Shown: positions 6,341 to 63,372 of the stretch, piece by piece
How the letters are laid out: every line of letters starts with the position of its first letter
Numbering within the stretch: the stretch's first letter is position 1
Origin: a virus
Strand: one strand, 5' to 3'
Virus record (IMG/VR): IMGVR_UViG_3300049846_001316
Span: 1-64,000 of that record
Length of the DNA stretch: 64,000 nucleotides
Notes under the pieces: generated by a model
Databases searched by the model: none
Seen by the model: the letters and a program-made list of their open reading frames with translations, nothing else
Told to the model about the DNA's origin: nothing
Program-made: the position numbers and the translations under genes

Positions 6341-6600
6341 CCGACGCCAACATCACCCAAGCCGTCGAGTTCAAGATCAATGACCCGGCGTACGCTCCGT
6401 GGGTCATCCGGATCGCCCGCGATCGCGGGCTCTCGCGCGACGAGTCCCGTGAGGCGCTCGAGCTGCTTCGGGAGTGGCTGCGAGCCAACCACAACGTCCG
6501 TCTCAACCTGAGCCCGGTGCACCTAGGCTGGGCCATCAACGAGCTCGACTTCATCTGTGATCGCATCATCGACAACCGCGGAGGTCCCGGTGTTCACTAA
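6337..6600 (+). CDS. Hypothetical helical protein
   Basis: An 87-residue protein with long predicted helices (residues 20-55) and no recognised motif. The GTG start follows AAGGAG at good spacing and forms a GTGA overlap with the previous gene. Its 3' end overlaps the glycoside hydrolase start by 11 bases. Confidence 0.68.
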   Translation: MTDANITQAVEFKINDPAYAPWVIRIARDRGLSRDESREALELLREWLRANHNVRLNLSPVHLGWAINELDFICDRIIDNRGGPGVH

Positions 6601-7531
6601 GAATCTGGTCGTTGGCCTGAACGCCGACTGGGACGACAACTCGCAGAGCTTCGCTGCCAAGACCGGTTTCCGGTCGGTGCGCGTCGGGTGGGAGCCGAAC
6701 TGGTCCCGGCCGCAACTCGAGGACATCATCACCCGCGCCGCGGCGAAGGGCTTGATCGTCGACCTCGAGATCGTCGCGACCAAGACCGCGTACGGTCGGT
6801 ACTACTCCGATCCGGGCGTGCGTGACCTCATCGCTTGGGCGGTGCCGAAGTTCCAACTGGGCTCGATCTCGTTCTTCAACGAGGGCAACCACCAGCCGTT
6901 CATCCAGAGCCCCGACCCGTACCAGTGGGCCGACGCCTGCGTCGAACTGCTCGACCTCGTGAAGAAGCTCCGGCCGAAGCTCGCGTGCGCGACGGGTGGG
7001 CTCTCGCCGGAGGCCGGCACGCTCACTCCGGTGGTGTTCCTGCGGGAGGGCATCCTTCACAACCACCGGTTGCTCGAGTTCGACGCGCTCGGGATGCACC
7101 CCTACGAGTTCCCGTACAACCCGCTCGACCCGAACCCGTGGAACTTCGTCCACCAGCTCGACGAGCTCCACCGGATCGTGGCGTACTGCCGCGCGGCCTA
7201 CCAAGTCCGGGCGACCGAGACGATGCCGTTCTGGCTGACCGAGTTCGGCGCGCCGTCCTACGGCACGCAGGAGGATCTGGCCCGGTACCCCGACGCGCCG
7301 TTCAAGTACAACGAAGCCGACCAAGCCAAGTGGGCGCTCTCCTACATCGAGGCGTTCGCCCGCTCGCAGGCGCTCATCGGTCGAGTGCACTGGTACTGCG
7401 ACCGGGACGGTGACCCCGGCACCGGCGCTTCGTGGGAGTCCCACGTTGGGCTCCGGCGTCAGGACGGCACTCCGAAGCCTGCCGCCGCGGTGATGCAGGC
7501 GTTCGCGTGGGGCCACCGGATGAAGAAGTAG
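6590..7531 (+). CDS. TIM-barrel glycoside hydrolase (clan GH-A type)
   Basis: A 313-residue protein with the marks of a retaining clan GH-A barrel. The acid/base candidate is E98 in the strand-4 motif FFNEGN and the nucleophile candidate is E218 in WLTEFGAPS; Trp-rich strands lie between them. It resembles the C-terminal catalytic domain of the tail protein at 39151 in its strand-4 and strand-7 motifs. No signal peptide is visible, so it would need a holin or the virion to reach the wall. GTG start chosen because GGAGG lies six bases upstream. The substrate could be peptidoglycan or another cell-wall glycan; it is not determined here. Confidence 0.8.
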   Translation: MFTKNLVVGLNADWDDNSQSFAAKTGFRSVRVGWEPNWSRPQLEDIITRAAAKGLIVDLEIVATKTAYGRYYSDPGVRDLIAWAVPKFQLGSISFFNEGNHQPFIQSPDPYQWADACVELLDLVKKLRPKLACATGGLSPEAGTLTPVVFLREGILHNHRLLEFDALGMHPYEFPYNPLDPNPWNFVHQLDELHRIVAYCRAAYQVRATETMPFWLTEFGAPSYGTQEDLARYPDAPFKYNEADQAKWALSYIEAFARSQALIGRVHWYCDRDGDPGTGASWESHVGLRRQDGTPKPAAAVMQAFAWGHRMKK

Positions 7532-9644: not shown

Positions 9645-10013
9645 ATGGAGCCCGTCACGACCGGAACTGCGGTCACCACGGCAGTCGCGTTGCTGCTGTT
9701 CGTGGTGGTCACGAAGCAGCTCACCAACTTCCTCAAGTACCTCCGCGCAGGCGACTGGAACGCAGTCGTCACCAACGTGGTCGGCTTCCTCGTCGCCTTC
9801 GGCGTGGCCCTGCTGTTCGCGAACTCGTCGTGGTCGGACCTCACGCTTCCCGCGCTCGACCGCCCGCTGGCGGACCTCTCCATCGCTGACCTGTTCATCG
9901 TCGGACTCGCCGGCATGAGCGGCGCGGGATTCCTCTACGACCGCGCCAAGGCCATCGACAACTCGCAGTCGGCCGCGACGCCGAGCCTCGTTCCTCCGAA
10001 GAACGACGCCTAG
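9645..10013 (+). CDS. Holin candidate
   Basis: A 122-residue protein with two to three hydrophobic segments (about residues 10-24, 40-60 and 78-97), a charged connecting loop and a polar Pro-rich tail. This is the size and topology of small phage holins, which open the cytoplasmic membrane to let endolysin out. It lies immediately before the NlpC/P60 endolysin. The ATG follows AAGGAG. No sequence family is claimed; the assignment rests on topology and position. Confidence 0.65.
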   Translation: MEPVTTGTAVTTAVALLLFVVVTKQLTNFLKYLRAGDWNAVVTNVVGFLVAFGVALLFANSSWSDLTLPALDRPLADLSIADLFIVGLAGMSGAGFLYDRAKAIDNSQSAATPSLVPPKNDA

Positions 10014-10083: not shown

Positions 10084-10917
10084 ATGACGCGCGTTGATCG
10101 ACTGTTCGAGTGGTTCCGCAAGTACGACTACCTCGGCTACTCCGCATCGGGCAACGACTGGGACGGCGACGGCTGGCCCAACCGTGCCGACGTGGATGAC
10201 GGAGACGGCGTGGACTGCTCCGGATCGACGTACCTCGCCTGGGCCTACGCCTGGGAGCCCAACCGGAGTCCGATCCCGCTCACCTCGACCTCGGGACTCG
10301 CGCTCCTGGCCGACCACAACAACTGGTGGGTCGGCCTCAACGATCTCAAGCGTGGCGACATCCTGCTGTACGCCGAGAACGGCGACGTGTTCCACTCGGA
10401 CGGCCCCGGTGGTCACGTCGAGACGTTCGACCAAGTGGTCACGAGCGGCAAGCTGCGCTGCTGGGGCTCGAGCGGCTCGGGGGCCGGAGTCGGCTTCAAG
10501 GACCGCGACCGCTACTGGTGGACTCGGGCGTTCCGGGTCCCCGGCCTGTACGACGACACCCCGCCCATCATCACCCCGGAGCAGTGGGAAGCCCTGCGCC
10601 GCGCACTGGAGGAACTCGACGTGGAACACGGCATGGCCGTCCGAGTCATCAACAACCCCGCCAATCCCCGGCAGGGCTACAAGCTCGACCGGCACGGTGG
10701 AGTCCACGCCTTCGGCGGCGCGGTGCCGGTGCCGAACGTCTCGTACTACCGCAAGGGCGAAGACGTGGCTCGAGACATCATCATCACCAACTGGGCGAAG
10801 GGCCGCGGGTTCGTCATGGATCTCGCCGGTGGTCTGCACCCGTTCAACGGTGAGGCCGAGATGCCCACGGACGGCTACTGGCCCGGCGCCAAGATCGTCC
10901 CCATCACCGAGTACTGA
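10084..10917 (+). CDS. NlpC/P60-type endolysin with DGGV-like repeats
   Basis: A 277-residue protein. Its N-terminal domain (about residues 1-155) has the Cys-His layout of NlpC/P60 or CHAP peptidases: DCSGSTYLAW with catalytic C45, LKRGDILLY, and GGHVETF with H111. Such enzymes cut peptide bonds in peptidoglycan. A helical linker (about 165-187) leads to two repeats (GYKLDRHGGVHAFGG about 197 and GFVMDLAGGLHPFNG about 241). They resemble the DGGV-type repeats of actinobacterial secreted proteins and recur in the tail protein at 35713. The repeats may bind the wall. ATG preceded by GAGGGG. Confidence 0.8.
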   Translation: MTRVDRLFEWFRKYDYLGYSASGNDWDGDGWPNRADVDDGDGVDCSGSTYLAWAYAWEPNRSPIPLTSTSGLALLADHNNWWVGLNDLKRGDILLYAENGDVFHSDGPGGHVETFDQVVTSGKLRCWGSSGSGAGVGFKDRDRYWWTRAFRVPGLYDDTPPIITPEQWEALRRALEELDVEHGMAVRVINNPANPRQGYKLDRHGGVHAFGGAVPVPNVSYYRKGEDVARDIIITNWAKGRGFVMDLAGGLHPFNGEAEMPTDGYWPGAKIVPITEY

Positions 10918-49780: not shown

Positions 49781-49794
49781 CTGAGGCCCCTCAG
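49781..49794. terminator. Small hairpin between convergent operons
   Basis: CTGAG GCCC CTCAG lies across the end of the leftward operon, 11 bases after the rightward stop. Five pairs with a four-base loop; a weak bidirectional terminator at best. Confidence 0.35.
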
Positions 49795-50891
49795 GCGCTC
49801 TGAGCGGCCAGATCGGTGTAGGCGTCGATCCAGTCGCTCCAACGCTGCCTCACGTCAAGCTGGGCCACGGAGACGAGCCCTTCGGCGCCGATCCGCTCCC
49901 GCTCCGCGGGGTCCGCGAGGCGCTCTAGGTGCTTTGTCCAATCTGCCGGTTTCCGAGCGAGCAGCCCGAGGCCATGCTCCCGGTGGAGCCATTCGTACTC
50001 CGGGGTGGCCTGCGCCACGAACGGGATGCCCGAGGCGGCGTACTCCATCCCCTTGATCGAGCTCTTGGCCAGGTTGAAGGGCGAGTTCGACAGCGGCACG
50101 AGTCCGATGTTGATGCCCTCGAACAACTCGGGGTACCGCTCGATGCCGCACATGGGCTTTGTGAAGACCCGCGCGCCACCCGGCAGCTTCATCGCCGCCT
50201 CGATCGAAGTGGCGGTCGGCCGGGGGTCGTGCCCTCCGTGGTAGAGACGTGCTCTCGGGTGACGAGCCAAGAACTGCTTCACCGCCCACCCGATCGTTTC
50301 GAGATCTCCGGACCGGAATCCAGTTGCTCCGACCCAGCCCAAGTGCGGCTCGCCGGCGAGCGGCTGTGGTGTCCACCGCTCCAAGTCGATGGCGTTGCGC
50401 ACCACCGCGATCGGCTTGTCCGGGAACTTCTGCTGGTACCGCTCCTTCAAGTACGGAGTGCTCACTGTGATGGCGCTTGAGGCAGCGATGTTGCGCTGAT
50501 AGAACTCCCGATTCGATCTCGGGTTGTGGTGCGGGTGAGTCGCTTTCCAGGCGTAGTTCCGCGGGTCGAGTCCGGGATACCAGTCGTCGATGTCTTGGAT
50601 GACGATTTGCCCGTACGCTCGAGCGCGGAGGAGCCCCTTGACTCCATCTTCCATCCATCGTTGGATGACGATGACGTCGAACCCGTCGAACTCGTTGCCT
50701 TCCCAGTCAACGAGCACGAGTTCACCACTCGGCCGCTGGTTCACCGCACCGAACTGCCGGGTGTAGATCCCGTTCAACCGAAGTTGCCGGGACGGGAGTC
50801 CGATGCGGTACCAGCCGGCTCCGCCCAGGGTGGGGTGGCCTTCTGCGTCTCGCGTGTTGGAGTAGTCGACGGTCGCGAAGCCGATCTTCAC
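49791..50891 (-). CDS. Glycosyltransferase, GT-B fold (group 1-like)
   Basis: A 366-residue protein. The N-terminal half has an acceptor-type Rossmann region (DVIVIQRWMEDGV, IVIQDIDDWYPG). The C-terminal half has the donor-site pattern (HLGWVGATGFRSGD, GLVPLSNSPFN, KGMEYAASGIPFVAQ) of group 1 glycosyltransferases. It transfers a sugar from a nucleotide donor; the acceptor could be virion protein, DNA or host glycan. Start GTG 50891 forms a GTGA with the upstream small gene; a TTG at 50906 is less likely. Confidence 0.82.
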   Translation of the reverse strand: MKIGFATVDYSNTRDAEGHPTLGGAGWYRIGLPSRQLRLNGIYTRQFGAVNQRPSGELVLVDWEGNEFDGFDVIVIQRWMEDGVKGLLRARAYGQIVIQDIDDWYPGLDPRNYAWKATHPHHNPRSNREFYQRNIAASSAITVSTPYLKERYQQKFPDKPIAVVRNAIDLERWTPQPLAGEPHLGWVGATGFRSGDLETIGWAVKQFLARHPRARLYHGGHDPRPTATSIEAAMKLPGGARVFTKPMCGIERYPELFEGINIGLVPLSNSPFNLAKSSIKGMEYAASGIPFVAQATPEYEWLHREHGLGLLARKPADWTKHLERLADPAERERIGAEGLVSVAQLDVRQRWSDWIDAYTDLAAQSA

Positions 50892-51010
50892 CGCACGAAT
50901 CTCCAAACGACGAAGATCACAAGGCCGACCGCGGCGTACACGCCGAGTGAGATCATGCAGCCGTTGTACAAGCCGCGCGCCTCACGGAGAGGGTCCTTGA
51001 GTTCGTCCAT
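50888..51010 (-). CDS. Small single-pass membrane protein
   Basis: A 40-residue protein: charged helix (MDELKDPLREARGLY) then one membrane segment (about residues 19-37). Both ends overlap neighbours (TGATG at its start, GTGA at its end), which argues that it is translated. Function unknown. Confidence 0.55.
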   Translation of the reverse strand: MDELKDPLREARGLYNGCMISLGVYAAVGLVIFVVWRFVR

Positions 51011-51180
51011 CAGTACGTATGGATCTTCACGAACTTGCCGCCCATGTGCGAGCTGCCGTCCTGACAGAGGCGGACTTCACGGATCTCGCGCATCGCGGTC
51101 GGGGAGACTCCCACCATGACCTGCGCGCCGTCGTGCTCGTTGATGTCCATGAGCGCCTGGATCAACTCGTCGATGTTCAC
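51010..51180 (-). CDS. Small hypothetical protein
   Basis: A 56-residue alpha-beta protein (MNIDELIQALMDINEHDG, VRLCQDGS). It resembles in size and pattern the 53-residue protein at 61051, both starting with a helix ending in a Gly/Asp turn followed by strands. GTG start in a GTGA overlap, stop in a TGATG. Confidence 0.58.
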   Translation of the reverse strand: MNIDELIQALMDINEHDGAQVMVGVSPTAMREIREVRLCQDGSSHMGGKFVKIHTY

Positions 51181-51890
51181 CGCTTCATTCCCCCATACTT
51201 CTTGTTGAATCGAACAAGGTCGTCGTACTTGGTCTGGTGGAGCTCTGGTACCTGTTGGGCAGAGTATTCGCCCATGTGGTCGACCGGAAGTCCGGTCACG
51301 ATGGCGGGCTTGGCGCCGGCGATCTCGAGTTGACGCACGAGGTCGTCGTCTCCGCACCACCACTCGAACTGCGGGTCCACGAAGGGCACTCCGCGCGTGG
51401 TGTGCCACTCCGCGGCGAACATGAAGGCCCAGCCGCAGATCCCGTGGTTGCGGTAGGTCCCGCGCACGAGATCAGGCCCGTGGTGCACCGAGTGCGCCGA
51501 CAGCGGAAGTCGGTAGTCCGGGCACACGATCCCGCGATCCGGGTCAGCTCGCAGCTCCTCTGCCAGAGGAGCGAGGAACTCCTGAGTCGGAATCGTGATG
51601 TCGTCGTTGAGGAACGCGAGATTGATCTCCTCGTCCGGGTACGACTCCAGCAGCATCGACCAGGCGAAGTTCCACATCCCGTAGAGGTCGTGATGTAGGT
51701 GCGCCGGAGGATGCCAGACTTCGAGCTTCGGGTCGCGCTCGTCCTCGGGCAGCCAATGGCGGAGGCGCTGATCGTCGGTGTCATCGAGAACGATGACGAG
51801 ATCGTGCTCGTCCAGATAGCGCAGGTCCACGAGGAGTTGGCGGAACGTGTCCGGGACGAACCGAGTCGGGATGGCAGCGATTGTTTTCAC
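51177..51890 (-). CDS. Glycosyltransferase-like protein, GT-A type
   Basis: A 237-residue protein with a GT2-like arrangement: IAAIPTRF at the N-terminus, a first strand LVIVLDD, then INLAFLNDDITIP holding the metal-binding acidic motif. Later RNHGICGWAFMFAAEW and WWCGDDDLVRQLEIAG give the acceptor/second acidic site. It is one of three glycosyltransferases in this block. Acceptor unknown. GTG start in a GTGA overlap. Confidence 0.75.
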   Translation of the reverse strand: MKTIAAIPTRFVPDTFRQLLVDLRYLDEHDLVIVLDDTDDQRLRHWLPEDERDPKLEVWHPPAHLHHDLYGMWNFAWSMLLESYPDEEINLAFLNDDITIPTQEFLAPLAEELRADPDRGIVCPDYRLPLSAHSVHHGPDLVRGTYRNHGICGWAFMFAAEWHTTRGVPFVDPQFEWWCGDDDLVRQLEIAGAKPAIVTGLPVDHMGEYSAQQVPELHQTKYDDLVRFNKKYGGMKR

Positions 51891-52345
51891 TCTTCATCCT
51901 CCCCAAACTCGGTGCCGCACCAGTCGCAGCGGTCGTGGGTCCACGAGTGGTTGCAGTGGTGGCCGCACGGACGCTTGCTCTCCGGGCACTCGTTGAGTGG
52001 GTACGTCTCGTGCGTCGGGTCTTCGGTGCAGGTGTCGCAGGACTCGGAGTCATCGCTCACCTCGTCGATCTGGGCCGGCACCTCGTCGACCTCGGGTTCC
52101 TCCTCGATCCGAGTGCGCGAGTTCCGGTGCTCGAAGCCGTCCTCCTTCGCAGAGTTGACGATCTGCTTGGCAACGACTTCGATTGCTTCCCGGTCGGACG
52201 GGTTGAGCACGAGTCCACCCGCCATGCGGCGGGCGAGCTCGATGCTCGGAACGTGGCCCTGCGCGGCGCACTCGCAGATGTCCGATCCGCACGAGTGGTG
52301 ATTCAGCGACCCGCAGTGGCCGCAGATGTACAGGTTCTTCTTCAC
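51887..52345 (-). CDS. Zinc-ribbon protein with two Cys clusters
   Basis: A 152-residue protein. N-terminal CGHCGS...CGSDICEC (about residues 8-25) and a C-terminal cluster CDTC, CPES, CGHHCNHSWTHDRCDWCG (about 103-145) give two likely zinc sites separated by an acidic helical part. GTG start in a GTGA overlap with the gene upstream. Function unknown; could bind nucleic acid or partner enzymes. Confidence 0.65.
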   Translation of the reverse strand: MKKNLYICGHCGSLNHHSCGSDICECAAQGHVPSIELARRMAGGLVLNPSDREAIEVVAKQIVNSAKEDGFEHRNSRTRIEEEPEVDEVPAQIDEVSDDSESCDTCTEDPTHETYPLNECPESKRPCGHHCNHSWTHDRCDWCGTEFGEDEE

Positions 52346-52614
52346 GCTTCCTCGCACTCCCCTTCCAGGTTCTCCTCGTCCTCGCAGGTGCAGATGCTCT
52401 GGTTGTGAGTCAAGCACCACTGGAACGGGTAGGCCATCTTCTTCTCGGGTTCGGGGAGCACGCGCAGGCGCATGATCTCGACGGGATTCTCCTCGTCGGT
52501 CAGCATGTCCTCGATGTCACCCCAGTCGTTCTCGCCGTAGCAGGCGAAGAACGTGTACTCACCGATGTCCTCGCCATCGGCGCGCATGACGATGTGGCTC
52601 GGGATCTTCCTCAT
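52342..52614 (-). CDS. Small acidic protein
   Basis: A 90-residue acidic protein with a beta-type N-terminal half (IVMRADGEDIGEYTFFACYG) and a Cys triad CLTHNQSICTC near the end. Overlaps both neighbours (ATGA and GTGA). No family recognised. Confidence 0.62.
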   Translation of the reverse strand: MRKIPSHIVMRADGEDIGEYTFFACYGENDWGDIEDMLTDEENPVEIMRLRVLPEPEKKMAYPFQWCLTHNQSICTCEDEENLEGECEEA

Positions 52615-53387
52615 CGGTAGTACGTCCTGTCCGCGTCGCGCTCCTCGACTCCGACGAGGGGCTCGACGTGGGTGCCCACGACGTCGTGCCGCACCCACGT
52701 CTGGCCGAATCCGAACTCCTGCGCGTCGGCCTGGAAGCACGGATCGTCGGTCGAGCCGGACTGCAAGTCCCAACGCCACCGCATCTTCCGGAACACGTCT
52801 CGACGCACCATCATGAACCCGGCGGTCGTCCAGTGCTCCTGGAGATCCATGTCCCGGTACTCCGGGTTCGGGACCTTCGGCCCGGAGTGCGCGTAGTTCG
52901 GCACGTGCCCGCAGACGATCCCGTGGTCGACCTCGAGGAGTCGGTTCACCGAGTCGGCCGGCACGCTGGTGTCGGTGTCGATGAACAGGATGTGCGAGAT
53001 GCTGAAGTCCGACTGCGCGTACTCGTGGGCGAGGTTGCGTCCGGCGCAGATGCGGTGCAGCCGACTCCGGCCGTCGAACTCCTGGATCAGATCATCGACC
53101 CGGAACTGCCACGTCACCACGTCCCACGCGGGGTCGGCCGCAGCCTTGACCTCGCACAGACGATCTTCGAGCGCGTCGTACGGCTCCATGCCGCGGCCGT
53201 CGACCTCGGCGGCGAGGAAGTGGGTCAGGCGGATGCCCGCGTCCTCGGCACGCATCAGGCGTTCCTCGGCGCGGTCGAGCCACGCCAGCTCACCGACGCC
53301 GTTGCACTTCCACGGCGCGCACGTGGTCGCAACGAGCACGTGCGGTGTCTCAGGCGGTGGCGTTCGTACGATGTCCACGAGGGTCAT
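52611..53387 (-). CDS. Glycosyltransferase, GT-A type (GT2-like)
   Basis: A 258-residue protein. HVLVATTCAPWKC starts the first strand; ISHILFIDTDTSVP (about residues 132-145) supplies the DxD metal site; TTAGFMMVRRDVFRKM and STDDPCFQADAQEFG are the acceptor-side and second acidic motifs usual in GT2 proteins. It probably modifies phage or host surface, or modified DNA bases; the acceptor is unknown. AGGA-type ribosome site before the ATG. Confidence 0.78.
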   Translation of the reverse strand: MTLVDIVRTPPPETPHVLVATTCAPWKCNGVGELAWLDRAEERLMRAEDAGIRLTHFLAAEVDGRGMEPYDALEDRLCEVKAAADPAWDVVTWQFRVDDLIQEFDGRSRLHRICAGRNLAHEYAQSDFSISHILFIDTDTSVPADSVNRLLEVDHGIVCGHVPNYAHSGPKVPNPEYRDMDLQEHWTTAGFMMVRRDVFRKMRWRWDLQSGSTDDPCFQADAQEFGFGQTWVRHDVVGTHVEPLVGVEERDADRTYYR

Positions 53388-54806: not shown

Positions 54807-55388
54807 CTATTGCTTCCAGGCGAGGGCCTGCACGTCCCCGCGGTGAAGTGTGTTGATCTCGTGACGAGCGAAGTTGTAGAGGAGCGTGTCCTCGAGTGCC
54901 TTGGGGTCGACGTTGGCGTAGTACTCCACTCCGTGCGGAACGAACGTCTCTGATCCCCGTGGGCCGGGGTCATCCGTGAGGAACTTGTCCGTGTACTCCT
55001 CGGGCTCCATGTTGTGCCCGTCCACGGCTGAGTGCGGAGCCCGCGGGTCGCACGCCGCGGTCATGATCGCGATGCCGTCGACCTTGAGGAACTTCGCCAT
55101 GTTGGCGACGATGTTGCGCCACTCGGGAGTGTGCTCGAAGACCTCGAGGCACAGCACCACGTCGAACGTGAGATCGCGCGCCGTCGTCCAAGTGGCAGCG
55201 TTGCCCACGTGGTCGACTCCGGGACCGGGCACGATGTCGACGCCCATGTACTCGGCGTCGGGGAACAGATCCCGGACACCGCCGTTGATGTCGAGGGAAC
55301 CGAACTCGAGCACGCTGAGTCCCTTCCACGACTTGAGGTTGCACCGCTTCACAGCGGCCTCCACGAACCATCGACACTCCGCGTGCAT
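54807..55388 (-). CDS. SAM-dependent methyltransferase (class I)
   Basis: A 193-residue protein. Motif I SVLEFGSLDINGG (about residues 25-37), acidic motif II YMGVDIVPG, and motif IV FDVVLCLEVFEHTPEW (about 75-90) are those of Methyltransf_11-type enzymes. Small molecules or sugars are the usual targets. It sits just upstream of the deazaguanine trio, so methylation of a modified base or of a sugar are both possible. TGATG overlap with the nuclease gene. Confidence 0.8.
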   Translation of the reverse strand: MHAECRWFVEAAVKRCNLKSWKGLSVLEFGSLDINGGVRDLFPDAEYMGVDIVPGPGVDHVGNAATWTTARDLTFDVVLCLEVFEHTPEWRNIVANMAKFLKVDGIAIMTAACDPRAPHSAVDGHNMEPEEYTDKFLTDDPGPRGSETFVPHGVEYYANVDPKALEDTLLYNFARHEINTLHRGDVQALAWKQ

Positions 55389-56536
55389 CAGGACTCCTTC
55401 TCGAGCTTGGTGATTGGCTTCACCTTGAGGGTTGGGTTCCCGAACCCCTGCCGGATGGAGGCACGGAGTTCGTTCTTCTGATCGAGCGACAGTTCGTCGC
55501 CCTTGAGCAAGTCGTCGATGTCGCCCAGGTTCAGCTTGCCGTAACGCGACATGATCTCAGGGCCGACGATCTCCGAGACGGTGAGCGGGTCGACGTTGCG
55601 ACGGGAAGAGGCGGTTACCGTGATCCGGTTCGACTCGCCCTCGAGTTCCATCAGCCCTTCCTCCTCCATCACCTTGAGGAGGTGGGTGCGGATCTCGTCG
55701 GCCGCAGTCTCGGCAGCCTTCTTCACGTACTCCAGTTCGGAGAGGCGGTCCGCCATCTGCTCCGGCGGCAGCGACAGGACGCCGCCCATGTTCTCCACCA
55801 TGCGGACCGAGCGGCACACGTGGTTGCGGACGCAGTACCGGCAGTTCGGGCCGAGCTTCTCTTCCTTGCCGTCCGAGGCGAGGATGCGGTCGAGCGTGCG
55901 CTTGAGATAGCTCCACGTCTCCAGCAGTTCGTCGCGGGTGTAACTGATCGAGATGGGCTCCCACCGCAGCAGATCGAACGTGATCCAGATGCGGGGCGCG
56001 TCCGGGTACAGGATCGCTGCCGCGAGTCCGTACATGCGCGCCTGGATGCGATGCTTGAGATCGCCGGGCTGCATCGGCGCCATGTACGTCTTGTAGTCGA
56101 CGACCTCGATGTTGCCGTTGTCGAGTCGGTCGCACCGGTCGAAGATGTAGTTGAACGGGACCTCAAGCCCGGACGTGCTCTTGACCGGGAAGCTCAACTT
56201 CTGCTCGGCCGCGAGGACCGTGCGGCCCTCCCAGTCCTGTCGGACGTACCACTTCTTCAGGAGGTCGACGCCCTCCTGCCGGCGTCCGTCGTGGGAGAAG
56301 AGCTTGTCGTACTCCTCGTGCCAGAACCCCTCCATCACCGAGAACGGAGTCTGGGGGTCAGTCTTGTAGAGCTCACCGACGACCCAACGCTCGAGCACGG
56401 AGTGGCATCCGGTGCCGAAGTTGGCGGCTTCGCCGGAGTCTCGGGGGGGCCGGTCACCGATGTACTTGGCGGCGTATCCGGCGGGGCAATCCTCGAAGTC
56501 TTGGATCGCGGTCGCGGAGAGAGAACGTGGCTTCAA
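55388..56536 (-). CDS. RecB/Cas4-type PD-(D/E)XK nuclease with Fe-S cluster
   Basis: A 382-residue nuclease. Motifs: LSATAIQDFEDCP with C17, FGTGCHSVLE (GxxxHxxLE), FDRCDRL and EVVDYKT (active-site Asp-Glu-Lys type residues). The C-terminal CRYCVRNHVC (CX2CX5C) together with C17 forms an AddB/Cas4-like 4Fe-4S staple. The C-terminal 120 residues are helical. Probably an exonuclease for recombination or host-DNA processing. TTG start with AGGAAGGA upstream; no ATG is available. Confidence 0.85.
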   Translation of the reverse strand: MKPRSLSATAIQDFEDCPAGYAAKYIGDRPPRDSGEAANFGTGCHSVLERWVVGELYKTDPQTPFSVMEGFWHEEYDKLFSHDGRRQEGVDLLKKWYVRQDWEGRTVLAAEQKLSFPVKSTSGLEVPFNYIFDRCDRLDNGNIEVVDYKTYMAPMQPGDLKHRIQARMYGLAAAILYPDAPRIWITFDLLRWEPISISYTRDELLETWSYLKRTLDRILASDGKEEKLGPNCRYCVRNHVCRSVRMVENMGGVLSLPPEQMADRLSELEYVKKAAETAADEIRTHLLKVMEEEGLMELEGESNRITVTASSRRNVDPLTVSEIVGPEIMSRYGKLNLGDIDDLLKGDELSLDQKNELRASIRQGFGNPTLKVKPITKLEKES

Positions 56537-56808: not shown

Positions 56809-57540
56809 TCATGCTCCGTTTTCCGTGAAGAAGGTTGGGCGTGCCAACCGGGACCGTGCTGCATCAGCGTAGCCGGAATCGACCTCGATGCCAATGCCTC
56901 TTCGACCCAAGTTCATCGCCGCGACGACGGTGGAACCGGACCCGGCGAAGGGGTCCACGACCACTTCGCCCCGCTCTGTGCTCATCTCCACGAGGCGCTC
57001 GATCAGGGCGACCGGCTTCTCGGTGGGATGGATGTGCTGCTTGCTCCCGAGCTTGTCGACGTGGATGATGGCGGAGCGGCGGTATGGGACTTCGCGGCGC
57101 CCCTTCTTGAAATACATGATCAGCTCGTGGCCGCAGCCCCAGTTGCCGTCGAGGTCGCCCATGCCGGGGATGCCCTTGTCCCACACCAACAGCATCTTGT
57201 ACAAGAAGCCGTAGTCTTGCATCAGGGGGACGAGGGCCGACTCCCACTCGTGGAGGCAGTCCCATTTGGTGAAGACGTAGAGGTCGCACTGCTCCCGAGT
57301 CTTCGGCAGGAGCAGTTGCATGGCCTCCCCGAACAGCGCCAGGGCGCCGGCCATGTCGCCGTCGTTCTCGATCTCCTTCACGAACCGCTTGCCCTGCGGA
57401 GTCGTGGCTCGGAAGCTCTTGAACGCCACGCCGTAGGGCGGGTCCGTGATGATGCACGGAATGTTGTCAGGGAGGGTCGGGATCAGATCCCGGCAATCCC
57501 CGTTGAGGATCTCTGAGCGACCCACGTTGACGCGCTTCAC
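56809..57540 (-). CDS. DNA amino-methyltransferase (N6-adenine or N4-cytosine)
   Basis: A 243-residue protein with DPPYG at residues 33-37 (catalytic motif IV) and VVVDPFAGSGSTVVAA near the end (motif I). The DPPY-before-FxGxG order is the beta class. VYVFTKWDC and the Gly/His-rich part between may form the target site. GTG 57540 forms a GTGA with the upstream membrane-protein gene; two further GTG codons upstream are in frame. Likely protects phage DNA from restriction. Confidence 0.88.
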   Translation of the reverse strand: MKRVNVGRSEILNGDCRDLIPTLPDNIPCIITDPPYGVAFKSFRATTPQGKRFVKEIENDGDMAGALALFGEAMQLLLPKTREQCDLYVFTKWDCLHEWESALVPLMQDYGFLYKMLLVWDKGIPGMGDLDGNWGCGHELIMYFKKGRREVPYRRSAIIHVDKLGSKQHIHPTEKPVALIERLVEMSTERGEVVVDPFAGSGSTVVAAMNLGRRGIGIEVDSGYADAARSRLARPTFFTENGA

Positions 57541-57722
57541 GCCCACGCCCACTCGATCCCCTTCCAGATGATGCCGCCGATCAGCACCGCCAGCAGGATC
57601 GCGAGCAGCGCGATGACGACCATCGTGGAGTTGACGGCGATCTTCATTGCCGTGGACATCGGCTTCTTCGGCTCGGGGACGACCATCTCGTACGTCTCCC
57701 GGTCGAATGGGTTATCGGACAT
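57537..57722 (-). CDS. Small single-pass membrane protein
   Basis: A 61-residue protein with a polar N-terminal half ending KKPMSTAMKIAV and one C-terminal membrane segment (about residues 32-55, MVVIALLAILLAVLIGGIIW). It overlaps the resolvase gene by 11 bases and the methyltransferase by four. Function unknown; a holin-like or envelope role is possible. Confidence 0.62.
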   Translation of the reverse strand: MSDNPFDRETYEMVVPEPKKPMSTAMKIAVNSTMVVIALLAILLAVLIGGIIWKGIEWAWA

Positions 57723-58212
57723 GACTCACCACCTTCGATTCCTCGGTTCCGGTCACCGCGATCGGGTGGCTCGACACCAACGACTCGATGAAGTCGCTGA
57801 CGCGGATTCCGATGGCGGGAACCGTCTCCTGGTCCTGTTGCACGATCGTCGAAGTGATCCTGCGGACCTGGCTGTCGTTCTTGAACAGGATGCCCTGACA
57901 GGCGTCCTCGAGTGCCTTCTGCATGTTGGTCGCATCGGCAGCCTGCTTCACCACTCGCCGGGTCTTGCCCTGATACGAGTCACGCAGGCGCCAGAAGAAG
58001 AACTGCACGTCCACCGCCCCGGTGAACATCCGGAAGTCCTCGCCCTTGAGGATGAGCTCCAACTCAGCCTTGACGGCCTGCTGGTACATGTCGAGTTCCG
58101 CATCCTTGAATGCGGTGGGGTAGGGCTTGCCCTTCGCTCGACCGATGCCGAGTGAGGGTGCCTTCCACGGGACCGGGTTGATGCCGGCGAGATACAGCTC
58201 GATGACGGGCAC
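57712..58212 (-). CDS. rusA: RusA-type Holliday junction resolvase
   Basis: A 166-residue protein. GINPVPWKAPSLG at the N-terminus, VDVQFFFWRLRDSY in the middle, then KQAADATNMQKALEDACQGILFKNDSQVRRI, which matches the RusA core with acidic metal ligands (D-x-x-N-x-x-K-x-x-x-D and ND). RusA resolves four-way DNA junctions. GTG start with AAGGAG upstream. Confidence 0.82.
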   Translation of the reverse strand: MPVIELYLAGINPVPWKAPSLGIGRAKGKPYPTAFKDAELDMYQQAVKAELELILKGEDFRMFTGAVDVQFFFWRLRDSYQGKTRRVVKQAADATNMQKALEDACQGILFKNDSQVRRITSTIVQQDQETVPAIGIRVSDFIESLVSSHPIAVTGTEESKVVSHVR

Positions 58213-58237
58213 TGGGACTCCTTGAGGGTAGAGGGTT

Positions 58238-58312
58238 CTCGACGGTCGGCCCCGGCCTCCCGGCCGACCCCACTATGAGTAGTGGAAGTGCGAACCGGAG
58301 CCGACCGTCGAG
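58238..58312 (-). terminator. Terminator region with two competing hairpins
   Basis: CTCGACGGTCGG (58238-58249) and CCGACCGTCGAG (58301-58312) form 12 perfect pairs around a 51-base loop. Part of the same arm, GGTCGGCC (58244-58251), can instead pair with GGCCGACC (58262-58269), giving a tight 8-pair hairpin. It lies just after the Rpf-domain gene on the minus strand. Confidence 0.65.
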
Positions 58313-58317
58313 AGGCT

Positions 58318-58866
58318 TTATCCGTAGGCGCGACAGCCCCATCCGGACAGACCGTACTTGGCATACACCCGCTCCGCAACGATGATCTGCTGCTCACGAG
58401 TGGCGTGACCGGCGAAGTCAGCGAACTCGCGTCCGCCGAAGCCGTTCCACGTGGTGTTGGCGAAGCCGAGCCCACCGCTGAAAGTGCGCCCGACCATCCC
58501 CCAGTCTCCACCCGTCTCGCAGCGAGCGATGCCGTCCCAGTTCACGCCGCCGGAACGACGCGGAGTTGGAGTGCTCTGTGCTCGAGCCGCTCGAGCTCGC
58601 TCCTGGGCGGCTCGAGCCGCTTGCACTTCGACTTCGTGCTGCTTCTGAGCGGCGAGCCACAACTGGCGGTTGTGCTCGTCGATCTCGTGGGTGCGAGCGA
58701 TGACCGCCGCCTGCACGATGGGGGACTTGCTCATCCCCTCCATCGAGACGGTCGGCTGGTTCATCGTCACCGGGGCCTCGGCTGACGCATCGGTCGCAAC
58801 GACGGAACCCACGGCTCCGACGACCGAGACGACAGCGAGGAACGCAACGCCCATGATTCGAGTCAC
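58318..58866 (-). CDS. Secreted Rpf-domain muralytic protein
   Basis: A 182-residue protein: N-terminal signal peptide (about residues 1-28, ending ATDASA), a helical Ala/Gln-rich linker (about 55-90), and a C-terminal Rpf domain. WDGIARCETGGDWGMV carries the catalytic E117. C116 and C178 match the disulfide of RpfB-type domains. Rpf enzymes are lysozyme-like transglycosylases acting on actinobacterial peptidoglycan. It may be a second endolysin with its own export route. GTG 58866 forms a GTGA with the gene upstream. Confidence 0.85.
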   Translation of the reverse strand: MTRIMGVAFLAVVSVVGAVGSVVATDASAEAPVTMNQPTVSMEGMSKSPIVQAAVIARTHEIDEHNRQLWLAAQKQHEVEVQAARAAQERARAARAQSTPTPRRSGGVNWDGIARCETGGDWGMVGRTFSGGLGFANTTWNGFGGREFADFAGHATREQQIIVAERVYAKYGLSGWGCRAYG

Positions 58867-59177
58867 TTCTTCTTGCCTTCGTTCGGGGACAGGTCCTCGA
58901 CCAGCTGCTTGAGCGAGTCGGCCGACCCCGTTGCGATGCAACGGAGTCCTTCCTTCGGGACGACGCTCCTGACGCAGAGCATCGCCCGAAGACCTCGGGT
59001 CGTTCCGACGCTGGCGACCACGAACTCGTGGTTGTGGTTGCCCTGCTTCTCGACGGCCTCCATGATCATCTTGGCGTCCGCCACGTCGTCGCAGAACGCG
59101 ATCACGTCGTGGTTGAACGTGTCGAAGCAGGCGATGTACGCCTTCCGGCCGCGACGAATGAGTGTGTAGTCGGTCAT
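58863..59177 (-). CDS. Hypothetical protein
   Basis: A 104-residue alpha-beta protein (YTLIRRGRKAYIACFD; EFVVASVG) with a Lys-rich C-terminus. No family recognised. ATG preceded by a GGGGGT ribosome site, 31 bases after the preceding gene, with a TAATAC element close by that might be a weak promoter. Confidence 0.62.
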   Translation of the reverse strand: MTDYTLIRRGRKAYIACFDTFNHDVIAFCDDVADAKMIMEAVEKQGNHNHEFVVASVGTTRGLRAMLCVRSVVPKEGLRCIATGSADSLKQLVEDLSPNEGKKK

Positions 59178-59208: not shown

Positions 59209-59412
59209 TTACGCCGTCAGAGAGACGACGTTGCGTATCTGCTTGCCTTTGCATCCCGGACAGGGCGATACGCTGAAGATTGTCCGGGGCACGGTCTGAT
59301 CGTCCCAATACTTCCGATCAGCCTCGCGCTTGGAGTTGTCACGACGTTCTTCCCACGCCGCCGGCGCATCGCACTCGTGGCCGCAGTCGAACGTGACAAC
59401 CCACTCGTTCAC
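59209..59412 (-). CDS. Small zinc-ribbon protein
   Basis: A 67-residue protein with CGHEC (residues 10-14) and CPGCKGK (51-57), a standard two-knuckle zinc ribbon. GTG start overlapping the clamp stop (GTGA), so it is coupled to replication genes. Function unknown. Confidence 0.65.
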   Translation of the reverse strand: MNEWVVTFDCGHECDAPAAWEERRDNSKREADRKYWDDQTVPRTIFSVSPCPGCKGKQIRNVVSLTA

Positions 59413-60515
59413 TTCGTGTCCACCACCGGCATGATGGTGCACTCGTAGCCGGTGCCGTCCGACACCTTGAACTGCTTGTCGGACGTGGGACCGAACTCGA
59501 ACAACGTCTCGGTGCCGGGCTCGATCACCTGGAGTGCACCGATCAGCGACTGCGGGGCGACCGCGGCGTCGAACGCCTCGGTCGGTCCGTCGCTCACGGA
59601 GAACGTCAACTCGGACTCCCCGATCTCGGGCAGCGTGAGCTTGACCTTGAGCTCCGTCTTGGTGATCCGGAGATACGCCTTCGGGTACCGCTCGTTGCGG
59701 GCGACCACCAGCAGGGAGCTGATTCCCTGCGCGACCTCCTGCGGATCGAGCAGGCACGAACCGCCGAAGTCCTTCTGCACCACGGCACGGAGGTTCGGGT
59801 ACGGGTGCTCGTAGATCGACGTGGAAGTCTGCGTGTCCTTGTCGAGCGTGAGCAGCAGCCGGTCGTTCTTGACCCCGAGCTTCACGTCGTGCGATTCCGC
59901 GACGAGGGCACCGAGCGCGGCCATCGGGACCGTGATCGGCTTCGCCACGGGGACCTCACACGGCACGAATGCGGCCTTGTAGCCGTCACACCCGTAGAGG
60001 AACTCTCCGTCGATGTGGACGCCCGTGAGGGGCGCACGCTGCGCCTCGGTGGCCACCGCCCACGCCACCCGCCGGAACCGCTCCGACAGGTGCTCCACCG
60101 CGGCGAGCCCGCGGGTGCTGTACCGGTCGGTCAGCACGAAGGGGTAGTCGTCGTGCAGGATCGGACGGATCTTCGAGTGCGACCGGCCGTGCTTGAAGTG
60201 GATGTACCCGTCCTTCTGCTTGGTGATCTTGACGGTCTGTCCGGCGCCGGTCGCGTAGTTGTTCGTGATGCCGGCGAGCAAGAACGCCGGCAGGCGCCAA
60301 AACTCCGCCTCGGAGTCGTCGCTGACCTCGGCCTCGACCTGCTGGCTGAACGCCGACTCGAGGTCGGTGGCGAGCAGCCGCAGTCCGACACCCGGCAGGA
60401 CTTCGATGATCAGTCCCTGCGCGCGGTCGAACGCGTTCCCCTTGACGGGGCACACTCGAGCTGCACGCTGCACGGCATCCACGAAGGTGCCTGCTTCAAC
60501 GGTGAGGGTGGTCAT
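59409..60515 (-). CDS. dnaN: DNA polymerase III beta-subunit-like sliding clamp
   Basis: A 368-residue protein with the three-domain pattern of bacterial beta clamps: an N-terminal domain (LTVEAGTFVDAVQRAARVCP), a central one (YPFVLTDRYSTRGLAAVEHL; QRAPLTGVHIDGEF) and a C-terminal one ending GYECTIMPVV. A dimeric ring would hold a polymerase on DNA. Phage beta-type clamps are unusual because most phages borrow the host clamp. ATGA overlap with the exonuclease gene. Confidence 0.82.
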   Translation of the reverse strand: MTTLTVEAGTFVDAVQRAARVCPVKGNAFDRAQGLIIEVLPGVGLRLLATDLESAFSQQVEAEVSDDSEAEFWRLPAFLLAGITNNYATGAGQTVKITKQKDGYIHFKHGRSHSKIRPILHDDYPFVLTDRYSTRGLAAVEHLSERFRRVAWAVATEAQRAPLTGVHIDGEFLYGCDGYKAAFVPCEVPVAKPITVPMAALGALVAESHDVKLGVKNDRLLLTLDKDTQTSTSIYEHPYPNLRAVVQKDFGGSCLLDPQEVAQGISSLLVVARNERYPKAYLRITKTELKVKLTLPEIGESELTFSVSDGPTEAFDAAVAPQSLIGALQVIEPGTETLFEFGPTSDKQFKVSDGTGYECTIMPVVDTK

Positions 60516-61054
60516 GCCTGGAAGATCTCCTCCATGTAGTGCTGCGCTTCCGCGAGCGTTGCCCGGATGTCGTCGATGGCGCGGTGAGTCTTCTTGCCGC
60601 GCGGCTGCCACGCCGGGATGTCCGGGCGCCACCGGGGCAGCAGTTCCTTGATCGTGGAGATGTCGATGTTGCGGTAGTGCAACGCCTCGGTCGTCAGCGG
60701 CATGTGGCGCTCCATGAAGCCGCGGTCGAAGTGAACCGACGAGCCCCCGAGCGGGAGCTTGACCGCACCGCACGTGTGGTGCAGGAAGTTGGCCACCGTG
60801 TCGTCCACCGACTCGATGTCCGGTGCGTTGTCGTGCTGGGCGCGGAGCACCGCGTCGAACAGGCCCGAGTTCTGATGCATGAGGAGTACGTCGTCCTTCA
60901 TGCGGGTGACCCAGTGGTTGTCCCGCGGAGCCACGACCGTGGCGAGTTGGTCGATGAGCTCGAGTCGGTCACCGGTCACGATGAACGCGACCTCGAGGAT
61001 CTCGTCCTCGTAGGCGTCGAGCCCGGTTGTCTCGATGTCGCACCAGACGATCAC
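60512..61054 (-). CDS. DEDDh exonuclease, oligoribonuclease-like
   Basis: A 180-residue protein. WCDIETTGLDAYEDEILEVAFIV is Exo I with the D-x-E pair; SSVHFDRGFMERHMPL is Exo II with its Asp; HRAIDDIRATL is Exo III with His and Asp. FHYR-type ALHYRNIDISTIKELLPRW matches oligoribonuclease. Possible roles are degrading short RNA or DNA pieces, or proofreading with the clamp. GTG start after GGGGGAGGAC, in a GTGA overlap. Confidence 0.83.
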   Translation of the reverse strand: MIVWCDIETTGLDAYEDEILEVAFIVTGDRLELIDQLATVVAPRDNHWVTRMKDDVLLMHQNSGLFDAVLRAQHDNAPDIESVDDTVANFLHHTCGAVKLPLGGSSVHFDRGFMERHMPLTTEALHYRNIDISTIKELLPRWRPDIPAWQPRGKKTHRAIDDIRATLAEAQHYMEEIFQA

Positions 61055-61212
61055 GCGTCCTCCCCCACGGTGATGTGGACCGTGCCCATGAAGGTGTCCA
61101 CGTCGAGTTCGTAGTAGCGGTCGTCGTCGGCCTCGATGTTCGAGACGGCAACGCACACTTCCAGGTCGTTGGAGTATCCGGCGAGGATCTCCTTGAGCTG
61201 ACCAACGGTCAT
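61051..61212 (-). CDS. Small hypothetical protein
   Basis: A 53-residue acidic alpha-beta protein (MTVGQLKEILAGYSND, VAVSNIEADDD). Similar in size and pattern to the 56-residue protein at 51010. GGAGAAG lies upstream of the ATG, and the stop overlaps the exonuclease start. Codon use is normal for the phage. Confidence 0.6.
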   Translation of the reverse strand: MTVGQLKEILAGYSNDLEVCVAVSNIEADDDRYYELDVDTFMGTVHITVGEDA

Positions 61213-61227
61213 TGAGGGTTCTTCTCC

Positions 61228-61419
61228 TTATCCGAACTTGCGGTTGCCGAGGTCGACGACCGCGGACTTCGGGACCCGCCAGCGGTTCCCGATCTTGATG
61301 GCGGTGAGCTTGCCCTCCTTGATCCACGTCCGGATGGTCGAGGGCTTCATGGAGAAGAGTTCCGCGACCTCCTCCGGCGAATACATCTTCTCCGGCTCGG
61401 CGTCCGGTGCGGTGGTCAT
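61228..61419 (-). CDS. Excisionase/MerR-like HTH DNA-binding protein
   Basis: A 63-residue protein with a helix-turn-helix of the HTH_17 excisionase type: YSPEEVAELFSMKPSTIRTWI, then KLTAIKIGNRWRVPKSAV. It could be an excisionase-like factor, an origin-binding protein or a repressor. No integrase is present, so a regulatory or replication role is more likely. Strong AAGGAGG before the ATG. Confidence 0.78.
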   Translation of the reverse strand: MTTAPDAEPEKMYSPEEVAELFSMKPSTIRTWIKEGKLTAIKIGNRWRVPKSAVVDLGNRKFG

Positions 61420-61514
61420 CGGTCCTCCTTCTTCTTGTGTCGGGCACAGGTGTGCCGCAGGATCGGGTTCACGCTGACCGTGCACCCGCAGACGAGTCGA
61501 TAGAACGCCTTCAC
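61416..61514 (-). CDS. Very small Cys-containing protein
   Basis: A 32-residue frame, MKAFYRLVCGCTVSVN, with CGC and a later Cys, and a basic tail. Overlaps the helicase stop (GTGA) and the HTH start (ATGA), which supports translation. Otherwise unproven. Confidence 0.45.
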   Translation of the reverse strand: MKAFYRLVCGCTVSVNPILRHTCARHKKKEDR

Positions 61515-62941
61515 GATTCCTCCCCTCGCAGGGCCTTGTATACGGCCCGCTTCCAGTCGGACTCCTCGATCACGGCGTCCTTCATTTCGAGCTTCTTCTT
61601 GATGATCTGCCGGACTCGGTATTCGACCGTGCCCTTGCAGAGGAACCGGTAGTACTCCACGCTCTCGCCCTCGGCGCCGATGCGGTGGATACGGTCCTCG
61701 GCCTGCTGGTTCATCATCGGGGACCACAACTCGTCCACGAAGAACGCCACCGAAGCGGCGGTCATGTTCAGGCCGGCAGCCGCGACTTGCAACATGCAGA
61801 CGATCGGCTTCGGGTCCGGGTCGTCAGACCACTCCCTGACCACGCTCGCGCGGTCCGCGCTGTTCACGTCTCCATGCAGCACGGGGATGCCCCCGATGCC
61901 AGCGACGTTGAGCCGTTGTACGAGTGCATACAGCACGTCCCGGAACTGGGTGAAGATGACGACCTTGCGGCCGGTGTTGTACAGCTCCATGGTCCGCGCG
62001 ACCACTTCGTCGAGCTTCTCGGACGAGTCCTCGTAGCCGGGGATCGTCGCGGTGGTGCCGCATATCTGCTTGAGCTTGAGAGCTTTGACCAGGCTGTTCT
62101 CGAGCTCCATGGGCTCGGGCTCGCCCGGCAAGTCGATCTGGAGCTCGGACTCAGCCTGGGCGTAGAGCCGTTCCTGCAACTCGGAGAGGCCGACCACGAT
62201 GTCGATGTGACGCTTCTCGGGCAGGTCGAGCACGTCCTCTTTCCGCCGGCGGATCATCACCGACGCCACTTCGGCACGTAGCTCGCTCTCGTTCTTGATG
62301 CCGACGACCTGCTTGTCCTTGAAGCCACCGAACATCGCGTACCGGTTCATGAACCGGAAGTAGTTGTTCCAGCGCCGCGGGTTGATGCGGTGGAGTTGCC
62401 CCCACAGGTCGCCCACGTTGTTCAGCATCGGAGTCCCGGTCACGAGCAGGAACCGGTCAGCCACGAGCTTGTGGGTGGCCTTGGTCCGCACGGACTTGTA
62501 CCCCTTGATGTAATGGGACTCGTCGAGGATGACGATGCCGAAGCCCATGGTGTTGAGCCGGTCGACGTACTTGGGCAGGAGTTCGTAGTTGATGATGGTC
62601 ACGTCGAACACGAACTCGCCGTCAAGGAGTTGGGCTTCACGCTTCTTGGGCGTGCCGTCCACCACGACGTAGGAGAAGTTCGTGTGCTTGGCGATTTCTT
62701 CGGCCCAGTTGCCCTTGAGCGTGGCGGGGCAGACGATCAGCAACTTCTTGGCCCGACCCATTTCGAAGTCGATGCCGGCGAGGGTCAGCGCCTCGAGGGA
62801 CTTGCCGAGGCCCATGTCGTCAGCGAGGAGCCACGAGTCTCGGGTCTTGGCCATCTGGCGGATGGCTTCGAGTTGGTGGGGGTAGTAGGTGATCGTGTCC
62901 TTGATCTTGCTCAGTGATCCTCGACCATGCGGTGCAGCCAT
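61511..62941 (-). CDS. SNF2-family DNA helicase/translocase
   Basis: A 476-residue protein with all main SF2/SNF2 motifs: Walker A ADDMGLGKS, motif Ia LLIVCPATLKGNW, Walker B LDESHYIKG (DESH), motif III LVTGTPMLNN, and C-terminal motifs IV-VI with VVIFTQFRDV, LHGD and QAEDRIHRIGAEG. Roles in origin melting, replication or repair are likely. ATG 62941 chosen because AAGGAGG lies at better spacing than for the ATG at 62950. It overlaps the upstream gene by 31 bases. Confidence 0.88.
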   Translation of the reverse strand: MAAPHGRGSLSKIKDTITYYPHQLEAIRQMAKTRDSWLLADDMGLGKSLEALTLAGIDFEMGRAKKLLIVCPATLKGNWAEEIAKHTNFSYVVVDGTPKKREAQLLDGEFVFDVTIINYELLPKYVDRLNTMGFGIVILDESHYIKGYKSVRTKATHKLVADRFLLVTGTPMLNNVGDLWGQLHRINPRRWNNYFRFMNRYAMFGGFKDKQVVGIKNESELRAEVASVMIRRRKEDVLDLPEKRHIDIVVGLSELQERLYAQAESELQIDLPGEPEPMELENSLVKALKLKQICGTTATIPGYEDSSEKLDEVVARTMELYNTGRKVVIFTQFRDVLYALVQRLNVAGIGGIPVLHGDVNSADRASVVREWSDDPDPKPIVCMLQVAAAGLNMTAASVAFFVDELWSPMMNQQAEDRIHRIGAEGESVEYYRFLCKGTVEYRVRQIIKKKLEMKDAVIEESDWKRAVYKALRGEES

Positions 62942-63372
62942 GCGTGCCATGCCTCCTTCACTCGCTCGAGGTACGTGGGTGACGCGAGTCGGAGTTCCTG
63001 ATCTCCGGCGCCCGGCTGGCTCTCCCGAATCTCATCCTGGGGGATCTGGAGATCACGACTCTGACTCGGGATGGTGTGGCCGATCAGCGCCTCGTTCGGG
63101 AGCGCGCCTGCGTGGTCCTCGCCACAGTCGAGACACCACCCGAACCGCAGGTGGTTCGCCGTGCGAAGGGTGGTCTGGAAGTTCATGAGCACCGCGATCC
63201 CGCCGTTGCCGATCGCGTGCAAGAGCAGCTCCACGTTGCGCGCGGTGTGGTCATCCGTGGTGGTGAGCCACTCGCGCAGGTGTCCGCTGTCGATGGTGTT
63301 CCGGACAGTCGCCGCAGCATTCGCCTCAAGGGCGGCGCGGATCGGCTCCGGGAGATCTTCGGGATTCATCAT
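62911..63372 (-). CDS. Hypothetical protein with a Cys pair
   Basis: A 153-residue protein. The N-terminal half is helical (residues 5-60) and a CLDCGEDH site (about 85) may bind metal. The last third is Gln/Glu-rich with a helical end. A strong terminator lies upstream of the gene, so it probably begins a new transcription unit. ATG 63372 or 63369 both fit. Confidence 0.62.
   Translation of the reverse strand: MMNPEDLPEPIRAALEANAAATVRNTIDSGHLREWLTTTDDHTARNVELLLHAIGNGGIAVLMNFQTTLRTANHLRFGWCLDCGEDHAGALPNEALIGHTIPSQSRDLQIPQDEIRESQPGAGDQELRLASPTYLERVKEAWHAWLHRMVEDH

Follow-up and report, generated by a model that had tools for sequence, protein, structure and literature searches.

What would a virus gain from a secreted Rpf enzyme encoded among its replication genes? 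This question is raised by an open reading frame (ORF) on the minus strand, at positions 58318–58866, of the 64,000-nucleotide stretch analyzed here (the window), which is contained in a 78,169-base virus record (IMG/VR IMGVR_UViG_3300049846_001316) that may itself be a fragment. An initial annotation had described a phage-encoded Rpf protein that is expressed with the replication genes rather than with the holin, and had suggested that it might stimulate slow-growing hosts early in infection instead of, or as well as, lysing them.

The phage rpf gene starts with GTG and encodes a 182-residue protein that is predicted to be secreted. Residues 108–177 (58336–58545) match the Rpf catalytic domain PF06737 (E = 6.2e-19; 68.9 bits against a Pfam cut-off of 27), and PHROG 29757 ("transglycosylase") also matches the protein (E = 8.6e-21). 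These E-values rule out a chance ORF, and the gene is the sole PF06737 match within the record. When solved structures were searched with phmmer (E ≤ 0.001), the eight distinct sequences that matched were all RpfB, RpfC, or RpfE (best E = 5e-13). Alignment with solved Rpfs identified Glu117 (codon 58516–58518) as the counterpart of the catalytic Glu, and Cys116 (58519–58521) and Cys178 (58333–58335) as the counterparts of the disulfide pair; all three are invariant in the 48 aligned sequences (48/48). The initial annotation, which gave no strand, was therefore right about both the Rpf ORF and its intact catalytic residues. Residue 134 is Gly, and Gln is found there in 32 of the 48 sequences; because Gly also occurs at this position in five aligned chromosomal relatives, loss of activity is unlikely. 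Third-position GC content is lower in this gene (0.76) than in the average gene (mean 0.87, SD 0.044). With a domain above the curated cut-off, the catalytic glutamate, a cysteine pair bracketing the domain, and a predicted secretion signal, all of them features of the Rpf family, the product looks like an intact Rpf-type glycan-cleaving enzyme.

Signal peptides were called throughout by hydropathy, and some by eye. Residues 1–29 (58780–58866) form a predicted Sec signal peptide, as had been claimed for this ORF: R3 is followed by a hydrophobic core and by ASA before E30, in the n/h/c form (cleavage site by eye), and hydropathy averages 2.37 over residues 4–22. Only 4 of the 64 called genes of at least 100 codons in the whole record, rpf among them, were positive by this rule. 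An AlphaFold2 model built from 48 sequences (mean pLDDT 84.7, pTM 0.54) consists of a 49-residue helix, a linker at residues 49–97 (58576–58722; block pLDDT 93–98 over residues 51–90), and a compact domain. This domain superimposes on the crystal structures of RpfB, RpfC, and RpfE with an rmsd of 1.1–1.4 Å over 71–76 columns, and on two NMR entries with an rmsd of 2.0 and 2.6. The Mycobacterium tuberculosis proteins (4emn, 4ow1, 4cge) have the same catalytic fold, Glu, and disulfide pair; the phage protein differs from them in placing the domain at the extreme C terminus, after the helical linker, and in having Gly at the usual Gln of GGLQF, and unlike full RpfB it contains no other Pfam domain. 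In a library of viral structure models, the best matches were "Transglycosylase-like" proteins of uncultured phages, one unnamed protein, and the Rpf-core protein of Barnyard.

The genes around rpf are all on the minus strand. Its start codon overlaps by 4 bp the stop of the preceding 104-aa gene (58863–59177), which has no family match, and the two genes are likely to be translationally coupled. Farther upstream are a small Cys-rich ORF that is zinc-ribbon-like by eye (59209–59412; missed by our gene calls, which came from our own script rather than a standard gene finder), a DNA polymerase sliding clamp (59409–60515; phrog_947, E = 4.8e-40 on the longer ORF 59409–60773), a DnaQ/RNase_T-type exonuclease (60512–61054; PF00929, E = 4.5e-15 on the longer ORF 60512–61447), a small HTH-type protein (61228–61419; matched in four of the five syntenic relatives described below and annotated as HTH or DNA-binding in three), and an SNF2-type helicase (61511–62941; PF00176, E = 4.1e-43 on the ORF 61511–62950). 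Downstream are a RusA-like resolvase (57712–58212; PF05866, E = 8.1e-11), a 61-aa protein with a single predicted transmembrane (TM) segment and no family match (57537–57722), an N6/N4 DNA methyltransferase (56809–57552; PF01555, E = 1e-28), and a PDDEXK/Cas4-like exonuclease (55388–56536; PF12705, E = 3.1e-20). The placement of rpf among replication genes in the initial annotation thus stands; its expression with those genes is what we infer from this position.

A 77-nt hairpin (58237–58313, minus strand) separates rpf from rusA, which makes their co-transcription uncertain. The 126-nt stretch that holds it has a minimum free energy of −58.6 kcal/mol (z = −3.07) and no T tract, and the hairpin may act on the rpf transcript as a terminator or as a site of processing. 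Scans for promoters (1 found, 0.9 expected) and terminators (7 found, 5.1 expected) returned numbers near chance. A 12-base piece of the hairpin arm recurs exactly once, at 16288, which chance could explain. Toward the end of the minus-strand block are glycosyltransferase-like genes (49791–53387), the third of which (52611–53387) was called by a weak match, and a membrane protein of the VUT family (Vut_1, PF02592; 54260–54799), a family linked to uptake of a queuosine precursor; Vut_1 also matches 1 of 85 neighbors of other viral rpf genes.

The lysis genes lie elsewhere. A holin-like protein with three predicted TM segments and no family match (9645–10013) and a probable endolysin (10084–10917) are encoded on the plus strand, about 47 kb from rpf. 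The endolysin has an NlpC/P60-like N terminus (motifs by eye; Amidase_5 match of E = 0.035, below the cut-off) and a C-terminal repeat; a CHAP search over the record gave no matches. The separation of rpf from the holin, noted previously, is therefore confirmed, with the holin called from its TM segments. As rpf is not encoded with the holin in a lysis cassette and carries its own predicted export signal, we rejected Rpf as the main endolysin. We also rejected it as a virion part, because it is a standalone 182-aa ORF and profile searches found no PF06737 domain in the tape measure protein of the record. The strongest rival to the reading that we prefer, remodeling of the wall before lysis, is an accessory lysis role, in which Rpf would be a second exported lysin that makes a glycan cut that the NlpC/P60-like endolysin lacks, so that the wall collapses faster once the holin fires. 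The look of the window's endolysin, judged from a weak match, fits this idea; the signal peptide, which would export Rpf without the holin, and the distance and opposite strand of the holin speak against it, as does the fact that isolated Rpf domains are generally weak lysins. We regard an accessory lysis role as possible, but as a tentative explanation.

Evidence bearing on the same alternative comes from related phages. Of 50,697 annotated phage records, 64 contain a match to the clamp, and we examined five syntenic relatives among them (Gordonia phages GMA7 and Jumbo and Rhodococcus phages Perlina, Mbo2, and Trogglehumper). The helicase, exonuclease, clamp, RusA, and PDDEXK genes are matched in the same order in all five, and rpf, the 104-aa gene, and the small Cys-rich ORF have no match (E 1e-3) in the compared stretches. 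In three of the five, the block itself includes a gene for an envelope hydrolase, in addition to the lysis genes on the plus strand: GMA7 Orf42 (L141 9362–10261), which is annotated as an endolysin, is a cutinase-family, lysin-B-like protein (PF01083, E = 6.9e-9) with 29% identity to the lysin B of Perlina; the Perlina gene encodes that lysin B (PF01083, E = 2.9e-6); and the Mbo2 gene encodes an NlpC/P60 protein (PF00877, E = 1.9e-15). No hydrolase is annotated in the block of Jumbo or Trogglehumper, and the lysin B gene of Jumbo lies just beyond the block on the other strand. Genes for wall enzymes thus turn up repeatedly in this block, and position by itself cannot separate early remodeling from lysis. 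The argument that a location in the replication block speaks against lysis is accordingly weak in this phage group, two of the three hydrolases found there being lysin-B-like. What distinguishes the window's Rpf from the three block hydrolases is its export signal, since none of the three (0/3) has a signal-like start.

The origin of the gene provides a different line of evidence. The closest sequences found are on contigs of Acidimicrobiia metagenome-assembled genomes (MAGs), with 82% identity over residues 107–182 (L020) and 53% over residues 49–182 (L021). Matches to rpf were found in 31 of the 58 genomes of the order to which L021 belongs, two of them near the threshold. One match in this order is 54% identical over residues 17–182 (G057), so that the phage protein has both its linker and its domain in common with it; another is 61% identical over residues 75–182. 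Short chromosomal Rpfs of the order (e.g., in MAGs Chersky_806 and 3_4_m_bin14) have the same linker and C-terminal Rpf domain, and L021 and L023 also have a signal-like start. They lie in bacterial contigs (L020 and L023 match no other gene of the window, and L021 has only repeat-like matches), whereas the phage gene lies in a replication block.

Phylogenetic analysis of 79 Rpf domains placed the phage protein within a set of 26 rows (23 from the host order, two other phages, and itself) with support of 97/90. The tree rests on 81 columns and 79 rows, has many unresolved forks, and omits the long-branch rows L009, L101, L102, L139, and L140, as well as L041 (no domain by the rule used), L029–L035, and L037–L040. 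Its starred branches force at least five changes of phage–host label, indicating several transfers of Rpf between hosts and phages, and the viral sequence L003 pairs with the chromosomal L126 (support 100/99). These similarities suggest that the phage rpf was probably captured from the chromosome of an Acidimicrobiia host. The host-like sequence would also suit a remnant or neutral passenger left by recombination with the host chromosome; we consider this close to negligible, given the full-length ORF, the intact active site, and the occurrence of Rpf as a standalone gene in a further 53 viral clusters.

The endolysin points to the same hosts. Its residues 171–276 share 53% identity with a protein from this Acidimicrobiia order, with matches in 12 of the 58 genomes; its C-terminal part has no match in the 50,697 annotated phage records, and of its possible relatives in IMG/VR, two stretches matched and none was confirmed. 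As Rpf and the C-terminal repeat of the endolysin are both related to Acidimicrobiia proteins, the host is likely to belong to this one order, and wall-gene similarity thus provides a lead to the host of the phage. The portal protein is nearest to those of Gordonia phages GMA7 and GTE7 (41%) and had no match in the 58 genomes of the host order in a search run without a positive control.

To place this gene among other viral Rpfs, we surveyed two collections. In the annotated phage records, tblastn matches to Rpf occurred in 194 of 50,697. Among the matches listed (the 60 best and 60 spread across the 194, overlapping), most came from Mycobacterium and Gordonia phages, in genes for the tape measure. 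Other labels were carried by the matching genes of Rhodococcus phages NiceHouse, Trina, Weasels2, Dorin, and Francesca and Streptomyces phages Alone3, pSt2308, and BRock; we inspected the ORF itself in Trina (as L007), Weasels2, Dorin, pSt2308, and BRock. Two scans of IMG/VR, the second of which confirmed 160 places and retained the best 80, gave 87 loci, with patterns derived from standalone proteins that make the survey lean toward standalone genes. L070 and L076 had no called start and were excluded. Of the remaining 85 loci, 79 are standalone genes of less than 300 aa (53 clusters at 80% identity) and six are long ORFs, tape-measure-like by length. A signal-like start was found in 72 of the 79 standalone proteins. 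Because our choice of start favored signals, we applied the same choice to 243 neighboring control genes, of which 22 were positive, and also used neutral starts, with which 42 of the 48 rpf clusters (of 53) that had a gene-caller ORF of 120–260 aa were signal-like. Several of the homologs have lipobox-like starts by eye.

The "transglycosylase" or hydrolase genes of Weasels2, Trina, and Dorin (Rhodococcus) and of BRock and pSt2308 (Streptomyces) are likewise phage-encoded and standalone with a signal-like start. Their Rpf domain directly follows the signal and precedes a tail or LysM-like end (by eye), whereas in the window's protein the helical linker precedes the domain, and L007 and L043 (taken as Trina and Weasels2) group elsewhere in the tree. 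The genes of Weasels2 and Dorin lie near thymidylate synthase and methyltransferase genes. In BRock (L113 6398–7480) and pSt2308 (L115 6433–7483), a signal-bearing NlpC/P60 gene directly precedes the signal-bearing rpf (signals by eye), the gene annotated as endolysin comes third after rpf, and the Rpf protein has a LysM-like end (by eye), an arrangement that favors an accessory lysis role. The host proteins RpfB and RipA are wall-cutting partners, and the order of NlpC/P60 and rpf in these two phages resembles that partnership; synergy between RipA and Rpf is cited in a paper on a RipA-type protein (PMC7472734). The window's rpf has no direct NlpC/P60 neighbor, its NlpC/P60-like protein being the plus-strand endolysin.

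The surroundings of viral rpf genes fall on both sides of the question. A large terminase was detected in 25 of the 36 records of at least 30 kb. In 11 of these records (8 of 18 clusters), rpf and the terminase share a strand and are no more than 5 kb apart; in the other 14 (10 of 18 clusters), rpf is far from the terminase or on the opposite strand, two of these 14 being same-strand at 5.5–5.7 kb. There is therefore no single early or late rule for phage rpf genes. Together, the terminase adjacency and the block hydrolases of the relatives mean that a lysis role fits many Rpf homologs and that a replication-block location does not exclude one. We also scanned 85 chosen neighbors of viral rpf genes (roughly 120 aa and above, no more than three genes away), with families taken from the first 25 of 38 and the first 25 of 161. 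Among those listed, the recurrent Pfam families are mostly those of DNA metabolism (C5 and N6/N4 methylases, PDDEXK, Thy1, primase-polymerase, AAA_25, and DUF2786), and terminase, amidase, and peptidoglycan-binding families each appear singly; the large-terminase PHROG family is matched by 3 of the 85 neighbors.

An integrase is encoded at 66707–67570 of the record, beyond the window, indicating that the phage is probably temperate, and this raises the further alternative that rpf is lysogen cargo (a moron), an extra copy that would aid growth of the lysogen or its exit from stationary phase. The overlapping 104-aa partner and the flanking hairpin could form an independent unit, and the deviating third-position GC would also suit cargo. 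Replication genes, among which rpf is buried, are normally silent in a lysogen. Furthermore, the integrase family PF00589 is present in only 3 of the 36 long viral rpf records (some of which may be fragments), all in one cluster, so carriage of rpf does not depend on a temperate lifestyle, and we consider lysogen cargo very unlikely. No tRNA was found in a scan of record stretch L002. In the same stretch, PHROG names a pair at record positions 70054–74499 (L002 11885–16330) as a cobalamin biosynthesis protein and an ATPase, which we take to be CobT/CobS-like. Within the window, a PAPS-reductase-like protein (3614–4342; phrog_424, E = 7.5e-53) adjoins a DNA methyltransferase (4339–5712), and a 313-aa protein (6590–7531) without a Pfam or PHROG match has the look of a TIM-barrel glycosidase by eye (NEGN and TEFG motifs).

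Rpf domains have been described in other phage proteins, and host Rpf has been linked to infection by two phages. The Barnyard tape measure is reported to bear an Rpf motif, and the mt3 motif of the TM4 tape measure, a wall-hydrolase motif other than Rpf, helps infect stationary cells (PMC1796659); PF06737 TG domains are described in eight Cluster A mycobacteriophage lysins (PMC3314691). The domains in these lysins and in the tape measures of Barnyard and many Mycobacterium and Gordonia phages are of the same PF06737 type as ours; they are parts of virions or lysins, whereas the window's Rpf stands alone. Phage-encoded PF06737 wall enzymes are thus already known, and what is new is the wider pattern, in which hosts and phages have exchanged secreted Rpf repeatedly; our search of the open-license PMC literature listed no work on the function of a standalone Rpf from a phage. 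Two further papers report that phages MontyDev and Bora infect Rpf-deficient strains of their host less well (PMC12908700) and that WC1 infection raises the expression of four of the six host rpf genes (PMC10986025).

A resuscitation role proper, in which the released enzyme or its muropeptide products would wake dormant neighboring hosts and enlarge the productive pool, would agree with the intact domain and with the repeated phage–host exchange in the tree. It would also agree with a study in which the recombinant Rpf of a soil Micrococcus was active on diverse dormant bacteria from soil, an activity that depends on the catalytic Glu (PMC12090717). A benefit to neighbors is a public good, which is harder to select, and the lipobox-like starts of several homologs would hold the protein at the producing cell. 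We consider this role unlikely. Release of Rpf to neighboring dormant cells is possible, as is the stimulation of slow-growing hosts proposed in the initial annotation.

The interpretation that we favor, with a probability of just under one-half (about 0.48), is that the gene encodes a Sec-exported, host-derived Rpf wall glycosidase that acts on the peptidoglycan of the infected cell before lysis. Rpf would be produced along with the early or middle genes of the minus strand and exported via Sec without waiting for the holin, and it would act from outside the membrane on the cell's own peptidoglycan. By loosening or remodeling the wall, as host Rpf does for growth, it may keep a slow or stationary host productive, and the weakened wall may ease the later holin/endolysin step; release to neighbors is not needed. 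This interpretation is based on the intact domain and its superposition on RpfB, RpfC, and RpfE, the prevalence of signal-like starts (72/79 versus 22/243), the block context with the 4-bp overlap, the separate lysis pair, the DNA-metabolism families that recur next to viral rpf genes, and the nesting among Rpfs of the host order, as well as on the reported importance of host Rpf for infection by two phages (PMC12908700). We count against it the envelope hydrolases that relatives keep in this block, the terminase-adjacent rpf of 11 of 25 records, the hairpin after rpf, Gly134, the third-position GC of 0.76, and the large-terminase matches of 3 of the 85 neighbors.

Many soil actinobacteria are thought to grow slowly or lie dormant, conditions under which phages multiply poorly. 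A broader and more doubtful proposal is that actinobacterial phages have repeatedly captured the secreted Rpf of their hosts, together with a RipA-like partner in the Streptomyces phages, to control wall remodeling and exit from dormancy, in effect a wake-up signal under the control of the virus. If phages do carry the growth-promoting wall enzyme of their hosts, viral control of dormancy would be testable with the isolated phages Weasels2, Trina, Dorin, and BRock.
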